NCBI GenBank assembly: GCA_946699065.1
Contig: CAMPDV010000115.1
Span: forward strand, 682,001-746,000
Direction: 5' to 3'
Length of the DNA stretch: 64,000 nt
Origin: Loxodes magnus
Taxonomy: Eukaryota; Ciliophora; Karyorelictea; Loxodida; Loxodidae
Shown here piece by piece: positions 1-60,569 of the stretch (position 1 is its first letter; each line of letters begins with the position of its first letter). Position numbers and translations under genes: made by a program. The notes beneath the pieces were generated by a model. That model saw nothing but the letters and a program-made list of their open reading frames with translations. It was not told where the DNA came from and searched no databases.

Positions 1-2100
1 TTTAAATCCCAATACTACTTGCAAAGGACCTATCTAGATAAAATCAGCTCTCTTTCCCATTGTTAAAGTATCTTCGATTATTTATTCTAAGGGATAGTTA
101 TTATCACAAAATGGTTTAAATACTTCTTGATGTAACTCTAGATAGTTAGCTGTCATTTATCGCATTTCCCATACTATCATTTCATCTATTAATTCTTGCT
201 GTTGGTAAGTTTATTCTAACGCTTGAAGTATAAATTTATTTTGCTATTACCTTTATTGAAGAAATCAGCCCAATAAATTAATCAAATTATTTCTAAGTGA
301 CTGGTGTTCTTGATTAAATGGTCTTACTTTAAAGTATCCAAAGTTGCTTTATAGTAAACCAATCAAATTTTATAATTCTTGGATTGGAGTTGATACTCTA
401 CATAAATGCTCAAGGAAAGAGAAGCCAACTGCTCTATAATAGGAATTTTAATCGTTTCTGAGTTTTCTTAAGCAATCAAATTCCTACATCAGATTCTAAA
501 TCATTTACTAGAATTAATCATTTTAGACATTTGCTTAGATAAGCTTTTATAAAGGCTCTCTTTTATTTAAAAGAAGAACGGGTTGTTAAGGTTCTTCAAC
601 TTATTAAGGAGGTAGATTTTCAGGTTAGATTTAGTTTTAACTACTAATAACTTACTACTGATTCTATTAATTTATTTACATATCTTGGCTTAATTTAACT
701 TGATTTAACTCTTACCTTTTAATTTGATTTTGACTTAAATTTACTTCTTAATCTATTGCTTAATTTTAATTTCATTCTTAGATGAATCTCTCTTGTGATT
801 ACTTTTAATCTAGTTAACTTTTTTAAAGTTGAGCAGCTTATTCATAGCTTTACTAAGATAAGTTTTAGTTCTAAACTTAATTGGGATAAATCTCGATACT
901 GTTTTTAACCATGTTTTATTGGCTTTATTAAAGAGCTTGTAACTAGTTTTATTACAAATTCTATGTAATTTACTGGTTTAAATTCTAGATGATTTAAGGA
1001 TTTAAATTATTTTATAACCAATAAACTTGGAATTAATTTTGCTTTTACTAAAGCATCGCTTTGAATTCTTAAAAACTCTAAAATTATTTTTACAGTTCTA
1101 AGTTTATTTGCTTTTGTTGCTCTAGCTCACTTTCTTTTAGTTTCAATTAAGTTTCTAATTTTATATTTGATTATTAGTATTTGCTTTAATTTTAAAGTTC
1201 TCTTGTGATTTAATTTAGCTTCTCTTGCAATTTATTGATCTAACTATTTTTATCTTGAAGATTTACATTAAATGTTTCAATCTCCTTTTATTTATCCTGA
1301 AGCTATCTTTTCTACTCTTACTCTTAGTTCTCCAGTTATTATTTTAAAGTCTAATCATTTAATTATATTCTATTAAAATTAATTTAAAGCTCAAAGCTCT
1401 TATTTTATATTTCTCTGAAATTTTCTTCATTCTTCTTGATTAATTCTTAAGCTTCGTCATTGTTATTATTTTGTTGTAAGAACTATAACAGTTGCTAGTT
1501 AAACTATTGTGTTTATTTTTAATTACTTTCAGCATTCTGGAAATTTAGTTCCTGCTATTGAATCTTTTGCTATAGTTATTAATTTTAGAACTATAAGCTT
1601 TAGCTTTGTTATTGCAATGCTAAGTTATTTTATTTCTCTTAGTTTAAAGCATTTTAGCTATTTTAAAGAGCTACATTTGATTACTACTACTCGCTTTATA
1701 GATAAGAAACTTGCTATTTTAAGTTTGTATTCTCGCTTTGTATGTTTTTGTTTTCAATTTATAAGCTGGATAATTAAGAGCATTATTAGCACTGATCATC
1801 AGCAAATTCCAACATTTAGAAAGAAGAGCTTGTTGGTTAATTGTCCTGCGATTAGATCGTTTAAAGAAGGGAGTTATTCAGTTATAAAGGTGTATGACTA
1901 CTTTCAAAAGGACAGCTTAGCTCCTCGAGTTAATTCACTAGCTATATATTTTATTGCTTTTACTATTTATTAAACTTTTTCAGCTGTTTGAAATACCAAT
2001 TGGCAAGACATTTGACACATATAGGGCATTTGCACTAGAGTTTAATAATATCTTAAGAATTAAATTATTAAGTGCATTCAGCACACATAAATTAATCCAT
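1..2100 (-). CDS. RING-like / coiled-coil / otubain-like fusion protein (C-terminus beyond window)
   Basis: Read on the minus strand with TAA/TAG as Gln, one frame runs from ATG at 2100 to the window edge (700 codons). Residues 6-31 carry C6, C9, C23, C25, C28 and C31, laid out like the first half of a RING finger with Cys in the usual His place; a CPF follows near residue 60. The middle is a long Gln-rich coiled coil. From about residue 540 the sequence follows peptidase C65 (otubain, OTUB1-type deubiquitinase): a DQNSYYRAVGFSFLE block stands for DGNCFYRAFGFS, and later MTANYLELHQ and FCDNNYPLEQ match the family's helical region. The nucleophile Cys is Ser here (codon 442-444), so peptidase activity is doubtful. 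The catalytic His would lie outside the window. Two in-frame TGA codons (772-774, 265-267) fit Trp. A RING plus otubain pairing suggests ubiquitin handling; that is inference. Confidence 0.7.
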
Positions 2101-2159
2101 TATTATTTAGTCTATTGCCTTGCTTAAATAATATCAACATAAACTTAAAATTACACTGT

Positions 2160-5100
2160 AATTATTTATTATTTTATAACCTTTATTTCTTTTATAGCGA
2201 GATATATTTCTATTTATTATGCCTTTATCACCTATTTCCTTTTAAGTTATTACCATATATCTGTTGCTTTTTAGCTTTTTTATAATTCTTTATTCTTTTA
2301 TTTTATAAATGCTTTAATAATTTAAGATTACGCTAATATGAATAAATAACTTGAAGCCTATATTTATAATTTAAAGGAGTGCCTTATTATCTATATGCAT
2401 TGTATAATCATTAGTAAAAAGTATTTTTCTAAAGTTTATGGTTTCAACTAGTCTAAATATAATGCTTAAGAACCTTAAATATATTAATTTATAATTATTT
2501 ACCTGACTATCATTGGCTTAATAGCCTTTTTAAATAGCATTATTTAAATTTTAGATATAAAGTAATAAGAAAGGTATTAATTAATTTTAAGTTAATAAAT
2601 CTCTTAGCCTTTTAAATTACCTTGGGTGTATTCTCTTTTACTTTAGAACCTGCACTCAAGTATAAATTTGCTAAAAGGTATAAAACTATTAATAATTACA
2701 TTCTTAATTAAATTTTGATTTTAATTATTTTTACTTTTTTAAAGGGAATTATCTTTGATAGCTGGCTTAGTTAGATTGTAAATAAATAACTATTTGATTA
2801 TGAGTTTATTCTATTCATACAGTTTGATGCCTTCTACTCTATTTAAATATTATATAATTTTATTCCGTTCATAATTTATTATCTTGGATGCTACTTTTAG
2901 GATTTATAAAGTAAATATTTCTAAAATAAATTATTAGAAGCCTTGATAAGACTTAGTGATTCATTATAGATATAATTAAACTAATTTGTAGCTTCTAGAG
3001 TATTCTCTTTTAAGACTTTAAGGCTCTTTAAATAATTAATTTATTGATAAATGTATATTGGGTTCATTTAGCTTAAGGGAATTTGGATGTATAAATGTAA
3101 GTGAATAGACATATAATCTAATTATAGCCAATATTGCTACTTTAGTTGATTCCATCTTAGTGTATTGTAATTATATATTAATAGTTATCTCTAGCTTATT
3201 TATTGCTAGCTATTAATTATTTTACCTACTTTTATTATAGAATAAATGAGTTATTACATCCTTATTCTTAATGTTCTTATCAATTATTTATGGATTTTTT
3301 AACTTAATTTTAATATATAAGGTTTATTCTAAGCTAAGCAAACTAAATACAACGTATAAAGGATTTGAAGGCTAAATTGTTTGATATTGGAGATTTAGTT
3401 GATGTATTATTAGGTGAAGTATTCTTTTTTGATTTTTTCGAGAAAAAGATTGAATTATATCAGTCTGATCCAGTTTAAAACCAGATTCTCCAAAAATTAT
3501 AATTCTTACAAGTTTAAAACTTTACTATTTACTGCTATGCCGATATTAAGAAATAACTTTACCTTTCTTTTATCAATGAATAATAGGCTTTTTATAAATT
3601 GGTCTAAGATTAAAAATATTTCAGAGTTAGAACATTTATTTCTGTATATTTGCTTTGATTATATCTGAAACTTTAGCGTAATTTCAGAAATATATAATAT
3701 AAGCTACCTCTCTTAAACATTAAGACTAGATTGTTGTTCTTGGTTATATTAATATAGCTAAATGATTCTTTTACACCTGTTTTACTAAAGTATCTATAAG
3801 ATTTTAAATAAATGCAACTTCTAAATGAGTTTAAGATTTGGCAGTCTTATATGTAAATGAATAGAGCATAAATAAGCAGAAACTTTATATTTTTCAAAAA
3901 GCTAAAAGTATTTCTCAGAAATAAGATAAAGGAGCTAAGGTTTTTCTTTTTCAGATCTTTCACTGCAAATAATTTGAGCTACTAAGAAATATTAAATTAA
4001 AGGTAAAAAAAGATCCATCATCCTTTCATTAGTTACAACTTAAACTAGTAAAAAGAATTAATTTAATTAGAAGCCTAAGAGTTTGCTACTATTTAAGTAG
4101 GTTCAATTAGATTAAAGTATAACTAAGACTATTATAATTAATATCCTTAGAAAATAGAAAGGAAACTGAAGAACTTTAGTTTAATTCTATTTTTATAATT
4201 AAAATTAACGAAATCCTTCTTAAAGACTGCTAAAATATCTCTAGAAATTAATTTAGCATTGCACTAAAATTACTCTAACTATCATTAATATAAAACTTAA
4301 GTTTTTATATAATTAGTTAGAATGAACATTTTAGAAACTTTTCTTAACTTTCTAAAATAAATCGTTCAAAATCTACCACAACTAGCTGTAAATAAATTTC
4401 AATCATTTTACAGGTTTAAAGTAATTTGATATCTAAGGTTGTACAATTAGATATATAGTTGATTGTAATTAGTTAAATCTAAAAATAAAAGAGATTTATT
4501 TAAGTTAAGATGCTATGATTATAAATAAAGAGAAAAGTAAAGAGAAATAAAATAAATAAAAAGGATAATTGTTGATGATTATTCGATTTAACAAGAATAA
4601 AAATAAGGTATTTTAATACATTTCTTAATAGCTATTTAAGCAATAATCTTATGCATTCTATTTAGTTTTAATTAAATAAAATATAATAAGATTTTATTAA
4701 TAACTAATAAAGGAAATAAAATTTAACAATGAGGGTTGTTTTTGCTGCTTTTAAAAAAGATTTGTTAATTATAGGAGATCCTTTAATTAGTAAACTTAAT
4801 AGAATATTTCTTTCGAATAGAATGAATAAATTTATGGATTGAGGATAAAGAACTTTTTCAATTGATATTTCAAAGAGAAACTTTAATTAAAAAATTTTTG
4901 AAAAATATATAAAAATTCTTTGCAGCCTCTTTTAATACTCAAATACATAGATATTTCATTAATATGAGAATTTTGTTTATTTCTCAGGGTTCGATTTTAG
5001 CAAATTATAATAAAAATAATCGAGATTTTAAAGGAAAGAAGTAATAAATTTTATTGAAAATGAATGAAGAGACTAATTACGTAGCTCTATACTTCAGAAA

Positions 5101-5418
5101 AATAATTAAAAGCTTTTATTCGTTTAATTAAATCACATTAGATTTTGGACTGAAATTTTCTAATTATTTTGCTTTAGAAAAATGTATGTAATTAAACTCT
5201 TGAACTTTATATCTATTAATAAATACTCTTTTATAAATTACTATTTAATCTAGTTTTTTATTTCTCATTTGCATATAATACCAAAAATTAAAATCACTAA
5301 AATTTATTAGCAAAAATAATTTTTTTAAACTAATGAAAAATAAAATTTATGTAGACAAATGGCGAAATTCTTTGAAGGCCTTTAAATTTTAAAATGATGA
5401 GAAAATATTTTTTTGAGA
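2160..5418 (+). other. AT-rich stretch, possible plus-strand gene of unclear frame
   Basis: No domain is recognised. Plus-strand frames stay protein-like over long stretches when TAA/TAG are Gln and TGA is Trp. For example, a hydrophobic, Leu/Ile/Phe-rich reading with soluble segments runs through 2.5-4.4 kb, and the segment 3362-3480 has many GNN codons in one frame. However, more than one frame looks acceptable over the same bases, and TGA is no rarer than chance. It could be a multi-pass membrane protein gene, a decayed gene, or plain AT-rich spacer between the two flanking minus-strand genes. Confidence 0.25.
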
Positions 5419-5502
5419 AAACCAAAAAATAAAATCTTGTAAGCTTGAAATATGAGGAATAACTAATAAATGTATTAATTAATTTGAATTTATAGTTGTT
5501 TT

Positions 5503-8292
5503 TCATTATTTCTGAATGTCATTTTCCCAGAATTGTTCTTCTACTTTTCCGTTTTTATCAGCAAAGATTACTTTCCCCTGAAGTTTATTATTAACCCAGA
5601 TGCCTTCGTATTTATCTCCATTTCTGCATTTCTTAACTCCTTGTCCATGTTTTTAACATTAAAGCCATTCTCCTTCGTATGAATCTCCATTAGAGTTATA
5701 TAAAGTTCCTTTACCCTAACTTTGACCTTTTTCTCACTATCCTTCATACCTGGATCCATTTTTATAGAAAAGAATTCCGTATCCATGTGATTAGCCTTAG
5801 AAAAAATCACCATCGTACTTATTTCCGTTTTCGTAATAAAATATTCCTTTTCCTTGCTCCTTATTTTCAATCCACTGACCTTCATATTTACTTCCATCGC
5901 TATATTTGTAAATTCCATATCCATGTCTTTATCCTTTAAACCATTCTCCTTCATATTAATCTCCATTTTAGTATATGAGAATGCCTTTCCCTTATTTTTG
6001 ATTTTCCTCAAAATATCCTTCATATTTGTCTCCATTTTTGTATTTACAAATTCCATAGCCATGCTTTTATCCTTTATGCCATTCTCCTTCATATGCATCA
6101 CCATTAGCATAATACTAAGTTCCCTTACCTTATTTTTAGTTCTCTACATATTAGCCTTCATATTTATTTCCATTAGTATACTTTCGTACTCCAAATCCAT
6201 GTCTTTGCCCTTTGAACCATTCTCCATCATAGATATCTCCGTTTAGAGACTGACAGGTTCCTTTACCTTGTTCTTTTCCTTCTACCCAAAATCCATCATA
6301 TTTAGTTCCATTACCACACTTCATAATTCCATACCCATGCTTTTATCCTTTAAATCATTCTCCTTCATAAGCATCTCCTTTTTAAGTAAAACAAACTCCT
6401 TTTCCTTATTCTTTGTCTTCAACCCAAAATCCATCATATTGAGTTCCATTAAAACATTTCTAAATTCCATTTCCATGACGTAAACCTTAATAAAAATCTC
6501 CTTCATAAACATCTCCATTAGAATATTTTTTAATTCCTTTTCCTTATTCTTTACCTTCTACTCATTATCCTTCATATTTGGTACCATTTTAATAAATAAA
6601 AATTCCTTTTCCATTTTTTTAATTTTTGGTTCACTCTCCTTCATAAAAATCTCCATTTGCATATTTATAGATTCCTTTTCCTTATTTTTGGTTTTCATAA
6701 AATTCTCCTTCATATTTATCATTGTTTTTGAAAATCATTTTTCCAAAGCCATGTCTTTAACCTTTTAGAAAGTTTCCTTCATAAAAATCTCCATTAACGA
6801 AGCCAAGATATCCTTTGCCATTTCACAAGTCAAACTCTCACTGTCCTTCATATTTGTAACCATTTTTATATAAATAGATTCCATATCCATGCTTTTAATC
6901 CTGGAATCATTCTCCGTTATAAACATCACCGTTTGCAAAATAAAGCACTCCCTTACCTTAACTTTGGCCTAATATCATTTATCCTTCATATCTATCTCCA
7001 TTCTTAAATTGAAAAATACCTTTTCCATGCATTTAGCATTGAACGAAATCTCCTTCATATATATCTCCATCAGGAGAATAAAGGATGCCTCTTCCTTATC
7101 ATTAATCTTCTACTCACTAGCCTTCATATTTTATTCCATTCTAAGCCTTAAAGATTCCATATCCATGCATTTATCCTTTATGGAATTACCCTTCATAAAT
7201 ATCTCCACTAGCATAAAAGAGAGTTCCTTTTCCATGTTTTTTTTCCTCTTCAAATCTTCCTTCATATCTTCCTCCATCATTAAATTTATAAATTCCTTGT
7301 CCATATTTTTAATCTTTGAGCCATTCTCCATTATAGATTTCTCCATTTTGATAATACTAAATTCCTTTACCTTGCTTTTAATTGCTGACTCATTATCCTT
7401 CATATCGAGTTCCATTTTTATATTTTAAAATTCCGTATCCATATCTTTAGTTTTATAATCAATCTCCTTCATATATATCACCACCTGCATGTTATAAAAT
7501 TCCTTTGCCCTAGCATTTATCTTCATATCATTGACCATCGTAAATTGTTCCGTTATTGCATTTTAAAACTCCTTGTCCATGTCTTTAATCATTTGATCAA
7601 TCTCCTTCATATACATCTCCATTTTCATAACGAAAGATTCCTTTTCCCTATTTATTATTTTGAAGATACTATCCTTCATATTAATCTCCATCGAATTATT
7701 TGAAAAATCCTTAGCCATGCTTTTAATTTTAAAGCCATTCTCCTTTATAGACATCTCCATTTGCATAATAAAGTGTTCCTTTACCTTAGCTTTAACCTTC
7801 TATTCATTGTCCTTCGTATTTATTTCCATTTTTATATGAATAAATTCCATATCCATGTCTTTTTCCCCTATATCAATCTCCATCATACTTATCTCCATTA
7901 GAGTAATATAATATTCCTTTTCCTCAGTTTAAATTTTCAATTCATTAGCCTTCATATCTAGCACCATTTTTGCATTTCAGAACTCCATAGCCATGAATCT
8001 AATCCTTATATCAATCACCTTCATACACTTTTCCATCAGGAGAGTATATAATTCCTTTTCCTTGTCTTTAATCTTCTACTCATTAACCTTCATATTTAGC
8101 TCCATTCTTATATATCAAAATTCCGTATCCATGCTTTTTTCCTTAATGCAGATCACCGGTATACTGGCCTTATTAGCCTTAAGATTACTTATTTTAATAA
8201 TCTTCATTTGCTTAAATTCCTTCCATTTTAATTTGACTCTTATAAAAAGCTTTAATTTAAAGTTCTATCTATAAATTTTAAATTTAATTCAT
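5503..8292 (-). CDS. Protein of about 38 tandem MORN repeats
   Basis: The minus-strand frame ending at TGA 5503-5505 encodes about 38 consecutive 23-residue MORN repeats from about 8160 down to 5520, typified by YEGQWVEDQRQGKG and YEGEWFKGQRHGYG. MORN repeats form flat beta-hairpin rods that bind lipids or scaffold cytoskeletal structures; in ciliates they are common in cortical proteins. The last repeat is followed by a short tail ending QFWENDIQKQ. No frameshift is seen over 2.6 kb and the repeat glycines are almost all kept. In-frame TGA occurs at 19 internal sites, 16 of them exactly at the Trp of the YxGxW motif (10 other repeats use TGG there), so TGA must be read as Trp. The start is uncertain: ATG at 8292 is used here, but the frame is open upstream to about 8690 with further ATGs at 8610 and 8622. 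Confidence 0.85.
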
Positions 8293-8729: not shown

Positions 8730-9655
8730 TCAGGATTCAAAGCGGGATTCTTCATTACTCCAAAAAAGTAAGGAATTCACGACATCCTAGAAAGATTAGG
8801 ACCAGGAAAAGGGCCCCAAAAAGATCACCTATAAGAATGAGTATCTCACCTATGAAAAAAAACCTAGAAAGTAGAATAAAAATATAAGGAGCTCGATTGT
8901 TTCCAATCTAACCACATAATAGTAAATAAGCTACAATTAGTTGATTAAAGTGGTGCTCTTCAGGGAGGAATCAAAAAAATAAAAGAAAGATAATAAAAAT
9001 TAATTAAAAACTTGAATCTGCAGAGAAAATAGAATCGAGACTCATTACCTAAGAAAGTGACTTTAACGCATTTTGAAATATTTTACAAGATCAGAAGAAC
9101 TAATTCTAGCACTAAAAATAGAAGCAGAAATAACTGCTCAGCAGATTAGAAAAACCAGCAACAATTGCAGCGTTGAATGGACCTACAATAATTAGTAAAA
9201 GACCCAATGATAAATGAAGGAAAAAAGAACTCAAGATTTAAACCTAAAAGGGAATCAAAAAGATGCTATTATTGTAGCGCTCTAACGCATTTATGCAAAA
9301 GATGCTAAAAATTCAAAACTTTAAATAAGAATACTAAAACTACTAGAAGAAATTGGAAAATAGAAGAAGATACAACAACAACTAAAACTAAAAAGAGAAA
9401 AAGAAAAATTATATTGCAACAAATTTGGAAAAATGTGCAATATCAAAGAAACCATTTATTATCTAGGCGAATGGATAACTTAAGTGTATTATGTATAGCA
9501 AGGAGAAGAGATGTAAAGACATTCAAATTTTTACATTTAGCCTCTAGAGCATTCTAGAAATTGGCGGGAAAAAGGTTGAAATACCTCCAAAAACGTCAAA
9601 CATTTAATTTTTTATTTGTATATATATTTTTATATATTTATAAATGGTAATTTGA
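8730..9655 (+). pseudogene. Old copy of the repeated coiled-coil/Cys-His ORF family
   Basis: This GC-richer block stands out from its AT-rich surroundings. It begins with GFKAGFFITPKK, which matches the N-termini at 15487 (MAGFKKGFLPPQ) and 43421 (MEGFKEVSTPPQ). A Lys/Glu-rich coiled-coil part containing ESRLITQESDFNAFWNILQ follows, parallel to ESRFMSQERELSAFWNISQ in the 43-kb copy. Then come a DPMINE motif and a Cys/His cluster (CYYC, H, C, CKRC), and a strongly basic tail. The parts lie in more than one reading frame, so this is a broken copy. The family is unassigned; ORF1 of a LINE or a gag-like nucleic-acid-binding protein are the likely choices. The shared Trp of AFWNI is TGA in both copies. 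Confidence 0.55.
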
Positions 9656-10328
9656 GAAACAGCCTGTTAAAAAGTATAATATTTTAGTAATAGGAATTTA
9701 TTTATATATTTATTATTTATCTTTTATATAAACTGACAGTTGTATAATCAATTATTTTTATTTTATTAATTCAAAGAAAATTTTAGAATAGAGCAAAGCA
9801 AACAATATCAACTCATGCTAATTATTTAATCTCTTTAATATTTAATTTTTATTTAAAAATTATTATAATTTTAGCATAAGTTGCTCTCATAAAACCTTTA
9901 AAATTAATTTAGCTTTAACTACTAAAAGATACTATTAAAGAATGAGAATTCCTATATTCAATTATCATATAACAATAAATTTAGTTTTAGTGGTATTATT
10001 TAATAAATTAATTTAATATTTAGGATTATTTTTACTATAATTATCTACTATAATTTTCTAGATTCAAAGTATTTAATTATAATAATTTGAATTTTTGCTC
10101 TGTTCTACTTAGCTACTGAAATGAAGGATTAGATTCTTATTTATGAAATTGTTACTTTTTTACTCTATTTCTTTTAGCTGTAATTCAAATGATATAAAAG
10201 CATTATTAAAATTATATCTAAAATGTTTTGAATCTAAAAAAATATAAGAAAATCGTTCAACCTAGTAAGGAAATTTTCTATAACTTACATAATTTATTTT
10301 TTTACCTATTTAATTAAAGGAAAATCTA
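9656..10328. other. AT-rich spacer, nothing recognised
   Basis: Low-complexity A/T sequence with no repeat, RNA gene or convincing ORF that I can support. Confidence 0.4.
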
Positions 10329-11399
10329 ATGCTTGTAACTTATAAAATTATCCACTATAATTCTCTCATAATACGTTATTTTTAAATCTTTACAAATATT
10401 TATCATTTCTATTAGAAAACTAGTAGCAATCTTAACTAAAATATTAAATAAGGTAAGTTCTTTTAGCAATATTAATTATTCTTCTACTTTTCATACTATA
10501 AAACTAAACTTGATTACCAGAACAATATCTAAGATATTTACAATGAAGCAAAAATTAAATAGCAATGATTATTATTTTATATATCTAAAGATATTTAAAG
10601 TATTTATTTTTGTGTTCTTTCAATTTTCTTTAGGCTTTAGTTTTTTCTTTTATAAAAATTTCGAATCTGGTATGGTTTATATAAGCAACTTTAGTTATAC
10701 CATAGACTTTAACATCAATCATAATTAGCCAGAAAAATTATAGCAATAGAATTCGATGGGTTATTCCATCTTTATTTTGATCTACTATTACTACAATAAT
10801 CATCTTAAAATTATGATTTCAAAGTTAAGTATCTTTGCGCTTTCTCAAAATATAATAGTTATTTTTAATTATTAAATACTAATAAATAATAAATAAAATT
10901 AAAATTTAACCAATAAAGCTATTTAAGGCTAAAATATTATAATATAATAGTTAAATCTGAAATTATCAAATTATAGATATATTATACTAATAACTTGCTT
11001 ATAAAGCTATTTAAATAAATTAAGCTTTTCCAAATAAAAAATATATCCTTAGGCTAGTAGAAATAATTTTATGTTAATTGTATATTTATAAATATAAAAG
11101 ATATAGATATCTTAAATTAATTACAAACTATTATAATTAATATTAATAAGTCATATTAAAATTAGAATCTCTATTATATTTAAAAAGTATAATATATAAA
11201 ATTTATTTAAAGTAAATTACTATTATTTTATTATTTATGTTTAAAGAATTGCTAAATTCTCAATTTTTTATTTGCAATCTACTTATTTTTATATTTTATT
11301 TCAGATTCATTATTGAAGATAAATAAGCTTAATAATAAACTTTATTTCTAAAAGTTTATATTAAATCATAATATAAACTAATTTTCTATCTTTTATTGA
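10329..11399 (+). CDS. Unknown protein, ORF open for 356 codons
   Basis: From ATG 10329 to TGA 11397-11399 one frame contains a single internal TGA (near 10566), then about 830 bases without any. TGA is otherwise expected roughly every 60-70 codons in this composition. The product reads as a Leu/Ile/Asn/Lys/Gln-rich polypeptide (for example IEFDGLFHLYFDLLLLQ) with no domain I recognise. The first part is less convincing than the second. It is a gene candidate based on frame openness only; chance remains possible. Confidence 0.35.
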
Positions 11400-11699
11400 C
11401 ATTAAAATCATTCTATATATGTAAATTTCTAAATACTTTCTGAAATTTATTTTCAGCTGATTTTTTATCCCCATTAAACATTTTTATTAGTATAAAATAT
11501 TTAAATTATATGGAATTATAAATTGTATCCTTAATAATTGACATTTCATCAGTCAACTTTTCAACATTAATATTTTCTTAAAGTTCATAATTTGAATATT
11601 ATAGATTGTTAATATTCACTTGTTTTTCAAATAAATACCAAGATTTAAGATTATAAAAACTAATATTTTAAATAATCATTTTAGATAATTAAAAAGATT

Positions 11700-11987
11700 G
11701 TGGGAGCTGAGATTGACCTTCTGAATCATACTTTCTGGCTTTATGGCTAGTAATAAGTTGCTTTCCTGTCGCTGAGAAAGTCCCTGGTCAAAATCAACCT
11801 TTGCAAGGGAACACCTTCCTTTTGATTATCCACTCCTGGTAGGGGCTTGAAGCCTGGCTGCCCATAGCGATGGAGCTCCCTGGCAGGTGCTTTTCGAAAG
11901 CAACAGGATATCCCCGTTATCCCATGAAGAGAGTGTTAGGGTCGTTAAACTGCAAGAAGTTGCAGTCCAAAACTCTTTAAGTTGAAA
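11700..11987 (-). repeat. Dispersed GC-rich repeat E, copy 1
   Basis: About 290 bases of distinctly GC-richer sequence match 54062-54355 in inverted orientation. Shared blocks include GCTGAGAAAGTCCCTGG and GGATATCC, and both copies end in AAAACTCTTT-like sequence (11.7 kb copy) or its complement. Read on the minus strand it contains TTCAAGCCC, an exact fit to the core of a pol III B box (TTCRANYCC). I could not find a clear A box. Without long ORF content it resembles a SINE or a repeated small-RNA gene. The copies differ at many sites, so neither is recent. Confidence 0.6.
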
Positions 11988-12603
11988 TTAATTAATTAAT
12001 CATTTTAGAATAAATAAATATTAACTACCAAGTTCTTTTTACGAAACTATATTTGATGGCATTATTTAAAAATAGATTTTTTAAATAGTAAAGTTATAAT
12101 TAAACTTAAGTATATCTAAAAAGTATATTAGAAGCTATATATTATTATAATTTAAATTTTTTGTTATATTTTATTTAAAGAAAATATATAATATTTAAAT
12201 GATTCTAACTAAAATATTATCTTTCAAACATTACATTAATTTTTAAGTAGAATTTATTTAATTTTTATAATTAATTATCTAGATTAGTTTAGATAAATAA
12301 AATAGTATTTCTGCTATAAGATTATTATTATCATTATTATATAAATATTTTTTGGTTTAGATTTAATATTTGCTTATATTTTGAAAAGAATTTTTAATTC
12401 AATAAACCTAATCTTTTTTTTATTATTTTAATGAATTTTTATTTTAGAATTTTAAAATTATAATAAAACATAAAAAGAGCCATTTCACTTACTAAGGTAT
12501 ACTCATACCGTTAGATTATTTTATTTTATAAAAATCTTTAAAAAGAAAAATTACAGTAAATTATCTGGTGTATAATAAAAGATTCTTTTACTTGCTAATA
12601 AAT
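11988..12603. other. AT-rich spacer, nothing recognised
   Basis: A/T-dominated sequence after the repeat; no feature can be supported. Confidence 0.4.
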
Positions 12604-13044
12604 ATGAAATTTATCCAAATTTATATTTTAGGATATCCAGATATTAAATTATTACATCTTCCATTTTATTTCCTGATGATATAATTTAAAAATGAATAGA
12701 ATTTAGTAGTAAAAAAGGAATTTCCTATAACTGAGTAAAATTACATTTATGTCGAAACTAACGAGGAAAAAATTCTGAACTGATTATTTTAGGAAAAAAA
12801 GCTTTACAAAATTGAAAATCCTAAAATTTTTGATTTGAAGTAAAAAAGTCCCAAAACTAATTCTGTTGTTGGAAAGATATATTAATTTCAAATCAATCAT
12901 ATCAAAATTTAGAATTTTGGATTAAAGAAATTAAAAGTTTGTAAAAGTTCCAAATATCAATGTAGCAGCTTATTAGTATGGATAATGACTTATAAGAGAA
13001 TAAATTTACTTAATTTGAAGGATTATCAAAAGCTATTAAAGTGA
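12604..13044 (+). CDS. Unknown small protein, 146 codons
   Basis: ATG 12604 opens a frame to TGA 13042-13044 with one internal TGA (NWLFQ context, read as Trp). The product is well balanced for a protein of such AT-rich DNA, with segments such as VVKKEFPITEQNYIYVETNE and KKLYKIENPKIFDLKQK. No family is recognised. A short IKIQNFGL segment recalls the DFG region of kinases with Asn for Asp, but nothing else supports that and I do not assign it. Confidence 0.4.
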
Positions 13045-13476
13045 TAAATAAAATTTGATCTCTTTCTTTAATAAATTGAAATTAAAAACTTATCACACAA
13101 TTTGCCAACTAAATCTAAGTGCTAAATAGTTGAATTAGCAAACATTTCTTGCTTAGTTTAGATTTGTTTAGATTAGGATTAAAATCCTATGTTTTTTACT
13201 TGAACTCACAAAAATTCGCGTATATGGATAGAAGTTTTAAGCAAGCAATTTTAGCTGTTCTTTTACTTCTGCACTTAAATTTTGAAATTTTATTTATAGT
13301 TATTAATAAATAATCTAAACTTTTCAGTTTATGCATGATCTTAGAAAGAGAAATTAGAAATTTTTAGATTATAGCTAGTTATCTTAATAAATTATATCTA
13401 TATAAGGCTAAAATGCTTTTTTAAAGTTTCATATACTTTATAAAATTTGATAACTCTAAGTTAAATCTTCAACAGT

Positions 13477-14376
13477 TCATCTATTTTTTTTTTTATTTAT
13501 TTTGTAAATTTTCTAAGGCTAAATATATTTATGGTACTATAAATCGATAACTAGAATTAGCTTTTTTATAATATTTAATTAAATTTAAAAGTTGTAATAA
13601 GTTAAGTTAAAGTTAAAAAGCTTTGTTAAAACCTTAGTAGTCAGCCATCTGACCTATTCTATCAGCTTGTCTCCATTAGTTTGTCAAAATTTCTACTAGG
13701 CTTAGTTAGGCGGTGTAGCACTTCATTAGCGCAACATCCTTTAATATTCTGAATAGTCTTCATCTTGCATGTAACGTTCCTAATTATTTCTCCAAGGATT
13801 AAGATTTGAATTAAATAATTTTTTTCTATAAATTCTTCCACTTTATGTTGGATATATCCTAAATAGTTTTCTAAAAATATCTTATTTATTCTTTCTTTAA
13901 ATTTCGCTTAGTTAGTAGCAGTATTTTCATTGGTGTTATTTATTGCACACGTAGCATTTTATTCTTATTTTAACCTATTATTCCTGTAACACTTATTTAA
14001 TTTAAATTTACTACTTATTTTAAATAAACGTTTACTGTTTATTTTAATTTGAGGCTTCATTTTCTATTTCCATAGGATCTGATTAATTCTGTTAAATCGA
14101 AAATGGCGTTACCTGAATTTATTATTAAATTTAAAGAATTCTTTGTTCCAGTTTGTTTTCTATTTCTTATGATTATTAATACTATTTCTCAAGTAAAGAC
14201 GTTATTAGTTTTTCTAATTTTTCTACTTTATCAGTGAGGAATCTATTTTTAAACATAAACTCTTTTAATGACTTAGATAATATTTCTATTTGAGTTTGTG
14301 TCGGAAGTTTTTTTAATTCTGGATTTCCAAGTGGTTAATGTTCGTCATATCAATCATATTTCTCACTTTCACTCAT
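13477..14376 (-). CDS. Coiled-coil CCHC zinc-knuckle protein (gag/ORF1-like), apparently whole
   Basis: From ATG 14376 the minus strand encodes about 299 residues in one frame. It starts MSESEKYDWYDEHQPLGNPE, continues with an acidic/basic coiled coil (about residues 40-100), a DPMEIENE motif near 120, and a zinc knuckle CYVCNKQHQWKYC (C-x2-C-x3-H-x4-C) around residues 141-153. A basic tail with RNNQERYMQDEDYSEYQ follows. DPM-(I)E plus a CY.C cluster is shared with the ORF copies at 9 kb and 43 kb, so this is a fuller member of that repeated family, probably a nucleic-acid-binding element protein. Four internal TGAs fit Trp. The end is uncertain: the next TGA after the clear coding part is 13477-13479, but composition becomes AT-rich from about 13615. 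No partner reverse transcriptase was seen nearby. Confidence 0.6.
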
Positions 14377-14778
14377 TGTAATTATTTCGCTTTTTTATTT
14401 TTTAGAGAATTTTCCTGTTTAAATGTTTTGTTCAAAGTTCTGTCATTTCTTAGAAGCTATTTTATATTTTATAATATAAGTAATTGCATATAAAGGCAAA
14501 AATACATCTATTTTAATTAAAAGGATTTATACTTTGAGAATTTAATTATCTTTATATTTCTTACTTCAAAGTAAACGCCTAAATAAACATCTTAGCTAGG
14601 TTTATGCCTTTATTTAAAAAATTCTAAATCTTAAGTCTTTTTTATTTAATGTTTATATTAAACTAAAATAAAGCACAATTATTCTTATAATGCAAAGCAA
14701 TTTTACTTCAAAGGGAGAAAGATTTAAATATAAAAAATAAACGAGATATTATATATTCTATATCTGATTGTTATTTAA

Positions 14779-15487
14779 TCATTAATCATTAAAATAACTT
14801 TTCGCCTTCACTTAATTGAAAATTTAAATGTATAAAGTCTCCGTTCCTGCATGTTCTTCTTTTATTATTCAAATATCATTCTCTAAACTTACCATTTGCT
14901 CATAATCTCCAACTTTATCTCTTCGGTCTACCATATGGACTTCATTATCATCTTCATGATTTATCAAATCCTGACTTAATACAAAAATCTCTTACTTCTG
15001 GGAGTTTAATTCATCTTCGAGTTTTTTTATGTTTCTAATAAGTTGAGAAATCAGCTGTTTCATCTACTAAGAGTCCATTTATTCTATAACCATATTGTCG
15101 AAATAAAAGATAATAGGATCTATATCGAATTATCTTATTTTACCTTCTTCGTTTATTTTTTATTTTTTAATTTTTTTGTTATTATTTTTATCGATTCGGT
15201 AGAGTGGTCTCTTTTTTCAGTTTTAAATGGAAGTGTTGAGAGCTTTTTTAATTTTTCTGTTCTGAATTTTATCTCAGTCCTTACTTATCCTTTGATGGGA
15301 GAGATCCGCTTTATTTTAATTTGTAAAAGCTAGTATTTTTTATAAATTCTTCTAATCTATTAGATAGTTCTGGTTATTTTCATTAAGAAGAGCGTTAAGT
15401 TGAAGAAGACGTGTTTAAAATATGTCTTATGGTTTTTTCTCTGCTATTCTGAGGAGGTGGTAAAAAACCCTTCTTGAAGCCAGCCAT
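14779..15487 (-). pseudogene. Repeated coiled-coil ORF family copy (N-terminal half)
   Basis: The minus strand starts MAGFKKGFLPPQNSREKT at 15487, the family N-terminus also seen at 8.73, 43.42 and 51.51 kb. Downstream come a Lys/Thr-rich stretch (ISPIKGQVRTEIKFRTEK) and a coiled coil with MKQLISQLIRNIKKLEDELN, which parallels MSMEQLIKIILNFQEEVRKL at 43 kb, ending near GTETLYI. The parts are in more than one frame, so the copy is broken. It lies just upstream of the more complete CCHC ORF and in the same orientation, so the two may belong to one inserted element or to neighbouring insertions. Confidence 0.5.
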
Positions 15488-17195: not shown

Positions 17196-17759
17196 TCAGA
17201 AATTTTTTTCTTGTAGATAATTACATAAAATATGAAAGCATAAATCCTATATCTTTTACTTTTTAGTGAGTTTATCCTCATTCTTGCTTTCATTAGCATG
17301 CTTATTTCCTAATAATGTTGCATTTTCTTGCTTTTAATACTCTTCATTTTGCTTTTCCTTTGATCTATCCAGAAGTATTTATATTTAATATTTATTTAGA
17401 CCCTGAAAATACTTCTAACATTCTTAAAGAAAAAATTTCTAGTGGTTTCAATGTTTCTAGTATAATTCGACTAAAGTTTATTCTTTTTCTAAGTTTCATT
17501 CTACGCTTTACAGTGGTAGCAATACTTAAAACCAGCGTTTCTTACATTGCTTACTCGTTCTCACTTCTTGCTTATGGAAATCAGAATTTAGCTAGCTAGC
17601 TGCTCTTGCTCATTTAATCTTTTTTTAACTTGAGGTAGCAATTTAATGAAGTAACTAATCCTCTTCTTTAGTTCAATCTACTTTTACGTATTTTCTTCAT
17701 CCGATTGAAGATTACTTAAAATTAGGATTAGTTAATGAATCCCCTTTAGTTACATCCAT
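17196..17759 (-). CDS. Myb/SANT-like DNA-binding protein
   Basis: ATG 17759 on the minus strand opens 187 codons to TGA 17196-17198. Residues from about 28 read VDWTKEEDQLLHQIATSS, then KWARAASQLN, then RTSKQCKKRW: the first Trp with EED, the second Trp of the W..(I/A)A helix, and the R-T/S-x-K-Q-C-x-x-R-W recognition helix of a Myb repeat. A second repeat begins SVEWNLEKEQTLVELYQKHW. Such proteins bind DNA or chromatin in the nucleus. The insertion between the second and third Trp of repeat 1 is longer than usual. Of the five Trp named, four are TGA and one is TGG, which supports UGA = Trp. The C-terminal third is Lys/Glu/Gln-rich. The exact stop is uncertain under this code. Confidence 0.7.
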
Positions 17760-20515
17760 TTTTATAAAATGTGATTAGGCTAACTAATTAAAGGCTAATA
17801 ACAAATATGGTTTCATATATCTATTTCAATCACATTTTTTAATTTAAATTATTTTATTTTAGTTTCCTTTTAATTTTTACTAAAAGCACAGTACCTAGAC
17901 ATACTTATATCAAACAATCTCTCTTTGATTGAAAGAAGGAGAAATTTTGTAGATTTAAGTAAAATAAATTTAGCATTTTTCATATCTTCTTTTGTATTTA
18001 TCAAAAAAAGAGAAAAATAATAAGATACTTAAGTGATTTATAGCAGACTTTTGTTATTTAATCTTAAAAATCTTCTATAAGTTTGCTTCAATTAATAACA
18101 ATTTCCGCTTAAATAAAGTTTCTAAATCTCCTAAATTATTAAATTATGCTTGTTCAAATATTAGCAAACTAAGCTCATTAAGTAGAAACATTTTTACAAC
18201 TTTAAATAATACCTTTAATTTATTGGGCAAGTTTAGCTTTTCTCATTTTAAGCTTGCAATTTATTACATTTTATAATTACTGAGTTTTGAAAGTCAAACT
18301 AAATTATCCAAGTACCTAACTAAAATAAAAAACATGCGAATATTTTTCTCTATTATGAGGATTTCAATGACCAAGTTATTTCATTATTTAAAAAAAAATT
18401 TAATTTGCAAGGATAACTAAAGACATTTTCGCTATTTTTTTCTATCTTATTTAATTATTCCTTGAAGATAATTATAAAATAATCATTTTTTCTAAAGAAA
18501 TTACAATAGCCAAATACTTATTAAGCTATTTAAAGTCTTATCTAATATTTAGTCATCCAAATTTTTTTTTAATTTATGCTTTTCAGTCTTTAAATTTGTT
18601 TAATACAAACTTATTTCAAAATTTAAGCTGATGAATAAAAATAAGGCTAATAAACAATTTTTACGAAATTACAAAAGCAGGATTACTATTTAATTTTGAA
18701 TCAATATTTTATTATTAAATTTTTTTATTATATCTAGAAAATTGTAGGTTGATTTAGAAGAAATAAAAAGCGCAGACTTTTAATTAAAAAATTATTTTCA
18801 TTTTTTATTTTAAGCTAAAATATGAAGAACTAGATATTAAATAATATATTAAGTTAAAAGATGAAAATAAAAGACTTTTTATATCCTTCTTTTATAATAA
18901 TATCAGTTTTTATTTAATTTTCCTGTCTGTATTTATTATTAAAATAAAAGCTATTCCTCTTTTTCCAATATTTTAGTACTTTAGTCTTAATTTTTAGGTA
19001 TTTATTTATGTATTTGATGTCAAAATCTATAATTTTTTTTTTTAATTAATAGAAATCTAAAAAATAAATTAGACATTTTCATTATTCAGATATCACTTAA
19101 ATGAAATTGATTTTTAGAATTAAGTTTTTTTGTGGTACTTTGATTTAAAAATTGACAAATTTAAATAAATGATTATTAATAATCCTTTTAGCAAGAAATA
19201 ATTTTTTAATTGTGACCTGATTCAAACTCCTTCAAAAATCTGATGAAAGTAATTTTTTCATTGATTAATGCAATAAAAATTTATATTAATTAAAGTTATT
19301 TTTTTCAAAAAATTAGAATTCAATGTCTTTTTTAAAAAGCCTTTAATCATGTATTATGGTAGCAATTTCGAAAGAAAACTTTAAAAGGTTTGCATTTAAA
19401 TTATAAAAGTGCCAAGGAATTGTATTACTACAAATAATTAAAAAATTGAAAGAGAATATTTAGTAATTGATAAATTTGATAATTTGCAAATATAGAAATA
19501 TTTGGTTCTTTCTAATATGTATTAGTTAATTTTTAGTCTTCAAAACTAAAAAAATTTTAGCATTTTTTTATTTTAAATAAAATAAAGATTAAAAAAAGAC
19601 TTTGCCATTTCTTTAATAAGAAGATTTGAAGACTAAATAAAACAAATTTTTCAGGAAGGCATCATAAATAACTAGCTTTGCTTTGGAAAAAATTTTTCAG
19701 CCTGATTTTGTTTATTTTTTATAAATTGTATTATTAATTAAAATTTTGCATATGTAAATTAATTATTTTCATTTAATTTCATTTATTTTAATATCTATAA
19801 ATTTTTCATAAAAGAAAAATAAAAATTAAATAACTATAATAAAAATTAAATATGTGGCATTGAAAATAATTCGATTTATCGAAAGTTAAAAGTAAAAAAG
19901 CTAAACTTAAATTGTATTATCAATCAACATTCAAATATAATAGATGAGAATAAAAAATATAGCAGCTATAAAAAGTTTGTTGTTTTTGGTTTTAAATATC
20001 TAAATTATAGGTGAGTTTAAAACAAAAAATCAATCAAAAATATTTTTTTTGGTTTATTAATTTTTTTTCGAAAGAAAACTAGACTTTTTCATAAAATTTA
20101 AAATAAACTTTATAAAAAGACAAATATTAATCTTTTATAGCTGCTAAAAGAAAAAATAAATGTAAAAATTCTAATATAACTTAAACAAGTTTAATTAATT
20201 ATAAAAAATGTGAGCCTTTATTAGAATAGGAGTTTATTGTTTTAATTTAATAAAATTTTTTTTATAAAAAACAAAAATCCATTTAAAGAGATAATCAAGA
20301 GTGAATCTTCAAATATAAATTCCTTTTATAAATGAATAGCTTATTTATATTAAAAATTAAATGCTAATTTGCTTATTTTTATCATATCTCTTAATTTAAG
20401 CAACTTTTATCATTTAGGCTTTAAGCTTAAATTTTAGAACAGTAGATTTTAAATTATTTCATAAATATGTTTAAAGGTCACTTACCATTTAATCAAAACC
20501 TTTTTCGAATCCAAA
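17760..20515. other. Long AT-rich interval, nothing supported
   Basis: Runs of A/T with scattered short ORFs; no recognisable domain, repeat or RNA gene. Genes without conserved domains could be hidden here because stop codons give no guidance. Confidence 0.3.
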
Positions 20516-20803
20516 ATGATTTTAAGCATAAATATTCATAAATATCAATTGCATGATATTAATTTTATTTTAGAGTATAGTTATATTTTAGAGTTGTATC
20601 AATTTTTAAATTTTTATATCTTAGTCAGTTCGTTTCCAATTTTTTTTAACCAGATCTATTCTTTACATACCATATCAAATAAAATGTTTTTTTACGTATT
20701 TTATAATCATTTTAGAGTGATCACACTAAATATTTCGTCTTCCAATTTGCATTAGAAGATAATTTCATCTATTACTTATTATAATATTAAATGTATTATT
20801 TGA
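20516..20803 (+). CDS. Small ORF, 95 codons, unknown
   Basis: ATG 20516 to TGA 20801-20803. The first 79 codons lack TAA, TAG and TGA, which is unusual in this composition. The product is hydrophobic-aromatic with mixed polar residues (MILSINIHKYQLHDINFI at the start) and no recognised motif. It may be a small membrane-associated protein or chance. Confidence 0.25.
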
Positions 20804-21289
20804 TTAATTTAATTTAATTTTGTAATAACTTGCTTAAAATAAAATAACAAAGTGAATTTTGTTTTTATACTTCAATAATATATTAATTTACATCATCCAG
20901 ATGACAATTTTGCTTTTTTTCCACAGCAGTCCTGCTTTCAGTCGAGTATCTTTTAATAAATTTTTTAAATTAAATCTTACATTTTCAGGTTTCACTTATT
21001 ATGCCAAGTTTATGCTTTAATTCTGCTAATTACAAAAAGCCATTAAATTTAAATTCTTCGTATTAAACTTAAAATTAAATTAATTTTGGATTTATTAAGC
21101 AATTGTGAAAAAAACCAATTTCCAATTTTATATTTGTGATTAATTAACTTAAACTTGTATTATACATTTCTCAATAAAATAAAATTAAAAATATGATAAT
21201 TGGGGGTTAGATTTGTAATTGGTTTAAAATTAGTGTTTCATTATAATTTTATTTTATAATTTAGGAAAGCTAAATCATAAGAAGTAAAC

Positions 21290-22075
21290 ATGAAAAAACT
21301 CTTTAAAATAATAGATTTTGCATATAAAAAGGGAATAAGCAATTTAATATTCGGAATCTGAAAAAAGTATAAAATGATATCAAGATTTATAACTTATTAT
21401 ATCTCGCTAAAGCAATCTTATGAAAACAGAAAAAGGAATAACTTACTTTTATAGAATAAATTGTTAAAGCGATGCATAACATTAAGGAAGAGGCTAAATT
21501 ATTTAAAAAGTAGAACGAAGGATTTTTGAAGAAAGTATAAACAAATAAGTCAGATTTATGAATCAGCAAAGATAAATGAAAATTTTATTTAGCATATAAA
21601 TTAATTTCCTAACTAGAAAAAAATAAAAAATGAATATCTATCATAGCAATTTAATCCTGTTTGTTATTCCAAAAAATAGAGTTTAGTAAGAAGCCAAAAA
21701 AATAAAAAACTAGGGACATCGAAGCGATTAAAATGGAGCTTGATGAAGTAAAGAAGAAAGAAACATAGTTTTTTATAATGGATATAATAGCAATTTGAAG
21801 GAAATGCTTTTACTGCAAATTTTTCCAAAAATTTATCAGGAATACCATGAAATAAAAATATCGAAAGAGAAAAAGACTGATCTATTGTGAAGAGAAATTA
21901 AAATAAATAACTTTAATCAAGCAAAATGGTATAAAAGAAAGTTACAAAAAAATTAAAGAAATCGTAAGTCAATGAAATGCAAAAAACTGGATGCTCCTAA
22001 CGTTTTCAATAATCCATTAGAACCATACTCAGTTTAGTGGCGTGAAAAAGAATAAAGTTTATTGTAAAAGACACT
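21290..22075 (+). CDS. Coding-like region, possibly Myb-related, frame changes inside
   Basis: Composition is clearly richer than the flanks. One plus-strand frame gives a charged helical product through about 21770 (KEEAKLFKKQNEGFLKKV; RDIEAIKMELDEVKKKET). Another frame is best from about 21780 to 22075 (TDLLWREIKINNFNQAKWYK; KKLDAPNVFNNPLEPYSVQW). The second part ends with SVQWREKEQSLL, close to SVEWNLEKEQTL in the Myb-like gene at 17.2-17.8 kb, so a Myb-type relative is possible. The frame change points to an intron I could not place or to decay. Several TGAs fall in Trp-like contexts. Confidence 0.4.
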
Positions 22076-23669
22076 CTATTTATCAATAATAATAAAAATA
22101 ATAAAGTTATTTTATTCTCTTATTCAACAAAAATTCTAAATTCTACTTATCTTAATGTCTTTAAATAATAATAATTAAAATCTAAAAATTTGCAATGCAA
22201 AGTTATCTCTTAGTAAATTTAAACACTAAATCTTATTAATTTCTTAAAAATTTAAAATAGTTATTTATTATAATTCTATAAAGCATTTAATATAATTAGA
22301 AAAAATTTCTAACTTAAAGAACTTTAAAGTTTATTAAATTTTTTCTTATAAAGGTTAATATTTTTTAATTATTAATATTATTTTAAATAGCCTTTTATAT
22401 ATTAAATCTAATATTTTATTAAAAATAATTAAACTTATAATAAAATAAATATAAATTAGAATTTTACTTTTTTCTTTTGATTATTACATCAATTCTCATT
22501 AATTTTCTAAAATTTAAATTTTTAAATAATAAAAAATTAAACTAGCTTTTATATAAGTTTACTCTAATATATTTAATTATTTTTTATTTAATGGATCATT
22601 TAAATATATTATAAAGTTTTCATTATGATTTAGAAAAGAGTTTATAGATTAATAATCAAACTAAAGACTTAAAATAAGATATATTTATATTTAACACCAA
22701 ATAGTTATTCTCCTATACTATCATTATTATATAATCAAGCATTTTTATGAATTAAAATGCTTAGAAACTCTATTAAATTGTTTAAATTATGTTTGGTTTA
22801 CTTTAGAAGAATGGCTTATTATAGAAGATTATTTACAAGCATAAAATTTTAAACTTGTTACCTATAAATAACTTAAATGACTATCTATCCAATCCCATTT
22901 AATATCACTCTTCCAAAGTTTATTAATATAGCTAATATAATAAATCCTAATTTAGCATTCTACCTGCTATATATTTGAGTTATAGCTAATAATATTAGAT
23001 TTATAAGAGCTTTCATTACTTAATAAAAAATAATTAAAGTAATCTATAATTATAATTATAAAAATAATATACCTGCTATTAAATTTTAATAGGATAAATA
23101 TAAATAAAATAGATTAAACAATAGTTAGAGTATATTCGAAAAGTATAAATAATTAGATAAAATTGTTTATAGAATAAAAATTACATTTAGTATATAAAAT
23201 TTTAACATATAGTAAATATTATAAATCTACATAAATATAACTTTAATAATTTTATATCTGATAAATATTAACTTTAGTATAATGCAATAAAATATTAATT
23301 TAGATATAGATTAATATCAAAATTTAAGAATTAAATGTATATAAAATGGAATAAATCAATTAAATTTTTTTTTAAATAGACCTTGAAATAAAAAATGGAA
23401 TATTTAAACAAATTAAGAACATTATTTTAGTTTATATCTAGAAGAGAAAAATAAATATTCATTCATTTTATATTTCTTAATATATAAGAAAATAGAATGA
23501 TAGATTTGCTAAATTAAAATTGAATACGAAAAATTTTGAATAATTCCTATTCAAAATTTTTAATTTTGATATTAGTTAAAAATAAAAAATTAAGTTAGGT
23601 ATTTGAGTTATATTTACCTTAATAAATATAGCAAATATTTTTATTTATTAAAATTAGTTTATAATTAAA
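22076..23669. other. AT-rich interval, nothing supported
   Basis: Very AT-rich, low complexity, dominated by A/T runs; no feature supported. Confidence 0.35.
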
Positions 23670-24008
23670 ATGGAAGCTATTAAAAGTGGATTTCACTTGG
23701 AGAAGGAGGAACACAAAAAGTCTAAGGACTAAAGTAAAGAGACTAGGCTATAAAAATCTCTATAGAAGTAGTATTCTTCTAACTCACTATCTGAAAAGAG
23801 AAAATAACCATAGGCAGGAGACACTTAAACTCCGCAAAGAAATAAAAAAAGACTATATTAGTTTAATAATAAGATATAAATCACTTTAAAGCCAGAAGAG
23901 ATTGAAAAAATTTAGACAAGAAAACCATAACAATTAAGGTTCAAATTAGATGTTAAATTTTAACTAATAATAATTTAAGTATAAGATTATATTCGTTATA
24001 ATTCTTGA
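23670..24008 (+). CDS. Small Lys/Gln-rich protein, 112 codons
   Basis: An island of richer composition starts at ATG 23670 after an A-rich leader and gives MEAIKSGFHLEKEEHKKSKD, then a Ser/Gln/Arg-rich part (SNSLSEKRKQPQAGDTQTPQ) and KPEEIEKIQTRKPQQLRFK, to TGA 24006-24008. There is no internal TGA. It is hydrophilic and probably disordered, with no recognised family. Another frame over the same bases is also open for 67 codons, so the frame choice rests on the ATG and the protein-like composition. Confidence 0.4.
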
Positions 24009-27000: not shown

Positions 27001-27949
27001 GAATTCAGGAGCCTTGATCTGGAATGATCATCAATACAATTATTAGTTTAGTATATGTTCATAAGAATTATACTGATTATTGAAATAGTAGAAAAGCTCT
27101 TAATTAAATTATAATGGTTTTAAATATTTTAAATAGGAATTTTATCATAGAATCATTATTTAAACTTTTAAATCGAATAAATTAAGAAAATAATAGCTCT
27201 TTTCAGAATTTCATATAAGTCCTTATAAACAAAGTGCTACTTCTACAGCAATTTATAATACTTATATCTAATATCACAAACCAAAAAATAATAATAGCTT
27301 AATTAATAATTAAACTAAGATTAAATAAACTTAATATATTTAATTAAATTCCTAACATAGGTAGATAAATATTATTAAATATATTAAGTTGGTATGATTG
27401 CTCGCTTTATGCATCGAATTCATAAAAATCTATATAAAAAATAAAAAGCATAAAATTTAATAATTTTTAAGTAATCTAAAATATTAAAAAATTTAATTGT
27501 CGTTTCTAATTCTACCTCACAATACTAAAATATATCATGATGCTTTAGAATCATTTAAGATTTAAGCGTAAATTAAGATTTTTCATAAAAATTGATCATA
27601 AATAGATTTAGCTCAAGCATATCTTAATGGTGAAATATGTGCAAAATGGCAGGAATAATCTCTAATGAATTAAGCATAAACATTTCTAAATAGCTATTTA
27701 GTAGTAATAATAAAGGTAAAAACCTATATCAAAGTATATGAGAGTTTTGAACGCTCGGTTAATTTTATTTGATAAACTGCTTAAAATAAAAAATATTCGT
27801 AATCATTTGAGTTAAATTTTAGAAAATTTTATAAATAAGAAGAGCCTTGATGAGCAACATTTAAAATAAGCATCTACGTTTTTAAAATAAGAGTATCATA
27901 ATAAGTGTTTCATTTTAATATCTATTTTTTTTTGATAATCGAATTCCCT
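24009..27949. other. Long AT-rich interval, nothing supported
   Basis: Among the most AT-rich parts of the window, with long poly-A/poly-T runs. No domain, repeat copy or RNA gene recognised. Confidence 0.35.
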
Positions 27950-28345
27950 GCGAATTAGTAACAACTATAGCACATATTTTTTATGAAGACTAGTCTATCG
28001 CTGTGTCCACATTTAGCAATTTTTTATTTTCTAGTTCCTTCAAATAATTGGTAAAATTACTCTTAAGGATTATATTCCTCTTCTTCAACTTATGTTGGAA
28101 TTTTTGCTTCAGGTTAACTTGCAAATAAAAAAGTAGCTTGACAATTATCAACTTCTTAAAGCTCATTTCCTAGACCAAAAATTTTGTTTTGCTTTGTCGA
28201 AAAATTTATTTTGAGAGGAGGTAAATCTCTATTTTAATTCCAATTAGTTTAGAACTAAGGAAAAGGAAATTTTCCAAGCAGCGTTGGCAAACCTTGAGTT
28301 ATATAAGATTTTTTATCCTATTTCATTTCAGTAATTATAATAAAT
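27950..28345 (+). repeat. Dispersed repeat G, copy 1 (3' CCAA/TTGG stem)
   Basis: Matches 57225-57612 in the same orientation. Shared blocks are AGTAACAAC..AGCACAT near the start and AAGGAAAAGGAAATT, then CCAA-loop-TTGG and a TTTCATTT..TTATAATAAA end. The inverted CCAA/TTGG forms a small stem near the 3' end. The copies are clearly diverged in the middle. It is a short non-coding interspersed repeat of unknown class. Confidence 0.5.
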
Positions 28346-35407: not shown

Positions 35408-35601
35408 ATAATTCTAATTGTAATTTAAAACGACAAAGACAATTTGCTTGCTTTTTTGACTATTCAATATTTATAATAGAAAATTAGGGAGTGCTAACAA
35501 AAATCAGAATAATTTATAAATGATTGATATATCATGTAATTAATTAGATATCAATAGTCGAGAAAGAAAACAAATTCCTAATTCTAAGATATAATTGAAT
35601 C

Positions 35602-42500: not shown

Positions 42501-42540
42501 AAATAATAGGATAAATTATTTTAGCAATTTTCGAGGATTT

Positions 42541-60313: not shown

Positions 60314-60569
60314 TAAAAAATTTAATTTAAAAATTTATACAATGGAATGGATATTTGCAACTTAATCTTAGTTCAAATTAATGAAAAATAAAAACTTAAT
60401 ACTTATGCCTCTATTTATTAGGTTTGGATTGTTTATTAATTAATATAGTAATGCTTATCCATTAGATTACTTATTAGTTAAATTATTAATTAAATTATAA
60501 ATTTAATTGTTAGTTTTATGAAATTAAGGCTTATTTAAGCAAATCATTATTATTTATTATAATTATTTA

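Follow-up and report, generated by a model that had tools for sequence, protein, structure and literature searches.

What does TGA mean in the window considered here, the whole 64,000-nucleotide (nt) stretch between positions 682,001 and 746,000 of contig CAMPDV010000115.1 (assembly GCA_946699065.1)? The question is raised by a MORN-repeat gene whose long reading frame holds 19 internal TGA codons. We find that the code of the window is very probably an ambiguous one, in which TAA and TAG would specify Gln, and TGA would specify Trp within coding sequence and stop at the end of a gene. This high confidence applies to the code as such, which two of the alternatives weighed below (a Condylostoma-type code and an independent origin) largely share. 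The gene and its repeat array are as follows (coordinates are those of the window):

5503–8292, minus strand: MORN-repeat gene, with 38 repeats and 19 internal TGA codons
5542–8094, minus strand: array of 37 repeats in strict 23-codon register, as counted by script

TGA at the Trp position of a MORN-repeat array

With TAA and TAG read as Gln and TGA left open, the MORN gene forms a single unbroken minus-strand frame from 8292 to 5503, starting from an ATG at either 8292 or 8226 and closing with CAG AAA TAA TGA (terminal TGA at 5505–5503). The initial annotation had estimated about 38 repeats in one frame, which agrees with the 37 in register plus an extra N-terminal repeat (YTGDL..., with CTG [Leu] at the Trp position, codon 48); Pfam recognizes 37 MORN stretches (E = 1.5e-181). 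At position 5 of the 37 registered repeats, TGA occurs 16 times, TGG 10 times, TTT 6 times, TTC and TAT twice each, and ATG once, such that the 11 repeats with neither TGA nor TGG carry Phe (8), Tyr (2), or Met (1). The earlier count of 16 TGA and 10 TGG was thus reproduced by script, as was the placement of the three other internal TGAs, which occupy repeat positions 10, 10, and 11. The single TGG outside the repeats lies at 5529–5527. The crowding of 16 of 19 internal TGAs into 1 of 23 columns has a probability of 1.4e-19 under a binomial and 3.7e-21 under a hypergeometric model, and the column profile of TGA correlates almost perfectly with that of Trp as encoded by TGG (r = 0.99), the runner-up being Phe (r = 0.55).

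The same column profiles identify Gln as the best residue for both TAA (r = 0.84) and TAG (r = 0.55), as had been proposed, although the result is weaker for TAG. Across our six gene models, TAA and TAG together number 294, versus 105 for CAA and CAG.

A single transition converts TGG to TGA, and the array could, on this ground, be a decayed gene (a pseudogene or hypermutated copy) of a ciliate in which TGA always stops. We regard this as very improbable: Gly is retained at 110 of 111 sites in the three conserved columns and no frameshift interrupts the 38 repeats, so the gene does not look dead (as was originally argued), and internal TGAs recur in a second and a third gene, described below. 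Moreover, the Trp column contains 16 TGAs but no TAG and no TAA; neutral G-to-A change would produce TAG from TGG as readily as it produces TGA, which argues against decay.

To identify the residue, ten amino acids (W, C, Q, R, G, Y, F, L, S, and K) were substituted for TGA in turn and scored against Pfam, both in the MORN gene and in a Myb-domain gene elsewhere in the window. In the MORN gene, Trp scores highest (578.3 bits), followed by Phe (566.0), Leu (522.2), Tyr (519.1), Lys (488.6), Ser (482.7), Cys (432.3), Arg (418.7), Gln (416.7), and Gly (375.9).

TGA in the other genes of the window

Gene models were built from frame and codon content, and three of the six have a Pfam domain above the cut-off. 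Apart from the MORN gene, they are as follows:

17244–17759, minus strand: Myb-domain gene, with TGA at residues 21, 29, 50, 88, and 104 and TGG at residue 76
1–2100, minus strand, running off the left edge of the window: gene A, a Gln-rich coiled-coil gene with an otubain (Peptidase C65) domain; TGA at 774–772 and 267–265
47321–48748, minus strand: gene C, a Gln-rich gene with a B-box match under the Pfam cut-off; TGA at 47365–47363 and 47323–47321
27910–28326, minus strand: small gene with Cys/His motifs, ending in TGA
60606–60989, plus strand: paralogue of the preceding gene, its TGA paired with the other's TGA where similarity stops

The Myb gene again favors Trp. Scores against Myb_DNA-bind_6 are highest for Trp (38.3 bits), followed by Phe (30.4), Tyr (26.9), Cys (22.5), Leu (22.3), Gln (21.2), Gly (20.4), Ser (19.9), Lys (19.3), and Arg (18.6). 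When TGA is translated as Trp, the best match among solved structures in the Protein Data Bank (PDB) is c-Myb (E = 1.9e-4). Three of the five TGAs (residues 29, 50, and 88) stand opposite Trp in both c-Myb and Cdc5, as does the TGG at residue 76 opposite Trp; residue 104 has Trp opposite it in Cdc5 but Gly in c-Myb, and neither alignment extends to residue 21. The reading of TGA as Trp, first drawn from the MORN array, is thereby independently upheld by an unrelated gene and is supported, at the level of sequence, in two unrelated gene families.

TGA is Cys in Euplotes (PMC10553269), whose code is NCBI table 10. That TGA is Cys or selenocysteine here is scarcely credible. Neither the MORN and Myb Pfam scores nor the MORN column bears out table 10: Cys falls 146 bits below Trp in the MORN gene and 16 bits below it in the Myb gene, none of the 37 MORN repeats has a Cys codon at position 5, and the best Myb match has E = 0.088 when TGA is entered as Cys. 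TAA and TAG, in addition, are sense codons here, which stands against Cys and selenocysteine alike.

The third domain-bearing gene, gene A, carries its otubain domain at the end of the gene (Pfam C65, E = 2.6e-17; OTUB1, E = 7.7e-10). Its TGA at 774–772 lies in the Gln-rich part preceding the domain, and that at 267–265 lies within the domain; since the domain spans the latter codon, TGA is read as sense there, at a site that does not favor Trp. The expectation that TGA would be enriched at conserved Trp in further genes was therefore borne out in one of the two other domain-bearing genes (Myb), whereas the otubain gene shows a sense codon without indicating the residue. Altogether, the six models (2,541 codons, a sample dominated by the MORN gene) contain 27 internal TGAs versus 17 TGGs, and 19 of these TGAs (16 in MORN, 3 in Myb) fall at Trp columns, or 20 if Myb residue 104 is counted.

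That TGA also terminates follows from the paralogous pair. With each sequence extended by ~70 codons past its TGA, the two align across 128 columns at 32% identity, and similarity stops at their two paired TGAs. To judge from these alignments, TGA is ambiguous, both sense and stop rather than sense alone, with the stop role drawn from two genes. Both paralogues bear CGH(S/T)D...MCxSCY motifs, and no Pfam family matches them above the cut-off. In gene C, one TGA lies 14 codons upstream of the last, and either could be the stop; a by-eye reading of this gene as PB1 found no Pfam support.

Recognizable genes occur at low density in the window. A codon model seeded with three genes spotted by eye returned 24 segments, of which 22 were compared with Pfam (21 alone or in a longer in-frame stretch, and 57178–57600 inside a wider scan), the two left out being 23670–23933 and the inverted copy 53349–53741; three segments (MORN, Myb, and otubain) reach the curated cut-off. 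Six-frame Pfam scans of 2101–5500, 9500–14400, 18000–22900, 35500–40400, and 56000–60900 returned no match at E = 0.01 and so supplied no further gene for the Trp comparison. For 43400–44600 the scan covered the minus strand alone, and elsewhere scans were confined to places flagged by the codon model or by long table-6 frames. Two other approaches were dropped: a coding scan based on generic codon usage, which settled on an incorrect frame in the MORN array, and a period-3 score, in which 7 of 8 rows were the MORN gene. Open reading frames (ORFs) at 13630–15486 and 42532–43419, considered as relatives, proved unrelated (E = 1.9).

The code and its known counterparts

In two unrelated families TGA occupies Trp columns, in a third gene it is sense, and it closes two paralogues; together these findings point to the ambiguous code, and the window would then be ciliate nuclear DNA translated with it. 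Such a code corresponds to that of karyorelicts (NCBI table 27, as in Loxodes and Parduczia), or to a close relative of it, and is already known: the altered code is genuine and of a described kind, a finding that is sound but, for that reason, unsurprising to a specialist. The broader claim that all three usual stop codons are sense here, as in karyorelicts and Condylostoma, is sustained by the MORN, Myb, and otubain TGAs and by the Gln profiles. The standard ciliate code (table 6), in which TGA serves only as a stop, is contradicted by TGAs inside the MORN, Myb, and otubain domains. A mitochondrial code would have TAA and TAG as stops and is rejected, since both are sense here. In practical terms, translation of these genes is settled: gene calls under table 6 or the standard code would cut them at TGA.

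For the karyorelict code, the primary publication is Seah et al. 2022. Karyorelicts are described in PMC11441545 as using table 27, with TAA and TAG as Gln and TGA as Trp or stop depending on its distance from the poly(A) tail; an earlier transcriptome survey had given TGA as stop and TAA/TAG as Gln in Loxodes (PMC6935857). The genes of the window resemble the karyorelict pattern in using TAA and TAG as Gln and TGA as Trp inside genes and as stop at their ends. They also resemble it in base composition, coding sequence being richer in GC and the 3′ flank rich in AT: the MORN coding sequence (CDS) has 30.8% GC and its 100-nt 3′ flank 17%, as compared with 33.5% for CDS and 18.6% for 3′ untranslated regions (UTRs) given for Loxodes magnus (PMC11441545). 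To judge from the code, this GC contrast, and the sparseness of recognizable genes, the lineage is probably a karyorelict such as Loxodes. Loxodes introns are mostly 16 to 25 bp, with a mode of 17 (same source); no intron is required by any of the six gene models, although introns were not searched for.

The codes of Parduczia and Condylostoma are described together in PMC4967479, whose account of Condylostoma has TAA and TAG terminating as well. A Condylostoma-type code (NCBI table 28) would match the window in having all three usual stops as sense codons for the same residues and would differ in allowing TAA and TAG, too, to terminate translation close to the 3′ end. The MORN gene, ending in TAA TGA, fits such a code insofar as its TAA could be the real stop. 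Both paralogues, however, end in the paired TGA, preceded by TAG and TAA as sense codons (4 and 6 codons upstream, respectively; these two genes only), and we consider a table 28 code rather unlikely.

About equally unlikely is an independent origin of the same code in an unrelated ciliate or other alveolate, for which published cases of separate origin offer precedent (PMC10553269 and PMC12005148). Karyorelictea, Condylostoma, and Plagiopyla appear together in one list in PMC11687900. Plagiopyla frontata, as summarized in PMC10553269, uses TAA/TAG as Gln and TGA as stop and, rarely (in 3 of 240 query proteins), as Trp; it thus resembles the window in using TGA for both functions and differs in the rarity of Trp-encoding TGA, as against 27 TGAs and 17 TGGs here (mostly in one gene). 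All three stops also serve as sense codons in a dinoflagellate, Amoebophrya sp. ex Karlodinium veneficum (PMC12005148); nothing in the window links to Amoebophrya, of which no sequence was compared.

Several observations weigh against this reading of the code, the last of them against Loxodes in particular. The Trp evidence comes from two genes, MORN and Myb, and the former alone separates Trp from Phe by just 12 bits. Eight of the 27 internal TGAs are not at, or not alignable to, a Trp column (three in MORN, two in Myb [one of them opposite Trp in Cdc5 only], two in gene A, and one in gene C). In the otubain domain, the five residues tried for TGA score Lys 66.0, Leu 64.3, Trp 63.5, Cys 63.1, and Phe 62.6 bits, and the codon stands opposite a gap in OTUB1. 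For TAG, with 11 codons, the Gln correlation barely exceeds that of His (r = 0.51). Neither a tRNA nor any Rfam family match was found in the window. The pre-stop depletion of TAA reported for Loxodes is absent at the end of the MORN gene, where TAA adjoins TGA. Finally, low-complexity tandem repeats, which make up approximately a third or more of Loxodes assemblies (by the figures in PMC11441545), are few in the window, and no reverse transcriptase appeared in the parts scanned, neither of which a single 64-kb window can weigh.

TGA and TGG along the MORN gene, and other features

Within the MORN gene, TGA leans toward the 5′ end and TGG toward the 3′ end (mean codon positions 351 and 660 of 930; permutation p = 0.0036), a test made post hoc on one gene. 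The trend holds when permuted within odd and even repeats or by preceding residue or following base (p = 0.004 to 0.007). In a column test of 13 synonymous codon pairs, TGA/TGG is the only one with p < 0.1 (~0.05 when corrected for 13), and Gln codons along the gene show no significant trend (p = 0.37). Across the first 12 spacings, more distant repeats are no less alike, and recent local duplication is thus not a ready explanation. The codons also differ in context: Glu precedes 3 of 16 TGAs versus 6 of 10 TGGs in the array (p = 0.046). The next base is C after none of the 19 internal TGAs versus 4 of 11 TGGs (p = 0.012), a small, post hoc observation.

In L. magnus, TGA is depleted in the ~20 codons before the stop (PMC11441545); in gene C, by contrast, the TGA 14 codons ahead of the last one may be a sense codon within that span. 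The MORN gene has no TGA in the last 76 codons before its terminal TGA and differs from Loxodes as reported in that TGG exceeds TGA far beyond those ~20 codons, in this one gene. Among the titles and abstract openings listed in a literature search, none describes a longer TGA gradient, and the lean is possibly a new detail. It is a speculative and, in our view, unlikely extension that TGA is graded along the message over hundreds of codons rather than excluded from the last ~20 alone. Under such grading, the risk of termination at a sense TGA would climb toward the 3′ end across hundreds of codons, and selection would replace TGA by TGG with proximity to the poly(A) tail. The MORN repeats serve as internal replicates for the choice between the two codons, and a long array in which they interchange at one conserved residue makes a good natural test of sense versus stop TGA by distance from the mRNA end.

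The otubain domain of gene A (1–558, minus strand) has Ser in the column of the catalytic Cys (DQNSYYRA, versus DGNCFYRA in OTUB1 chain 3von), and with this substitution the enzyme may be inactive. The window also contains the following repeats:

52369–53769 and 42127–44920: elements with long inverted ends (arms of 458 and 378 nt, respectively, 98% complementary)
29301–29580 / 55637–55932 and 11685–11796 / 54251–54362: dispersed inverted repeat pairs, 83 to 97% alike in pieces

Fragments related to the long-inverted-end elements occur at 50092–50350, and the element at 42127–44920 encloses a coiled-coil-like ORF (43419–42532).
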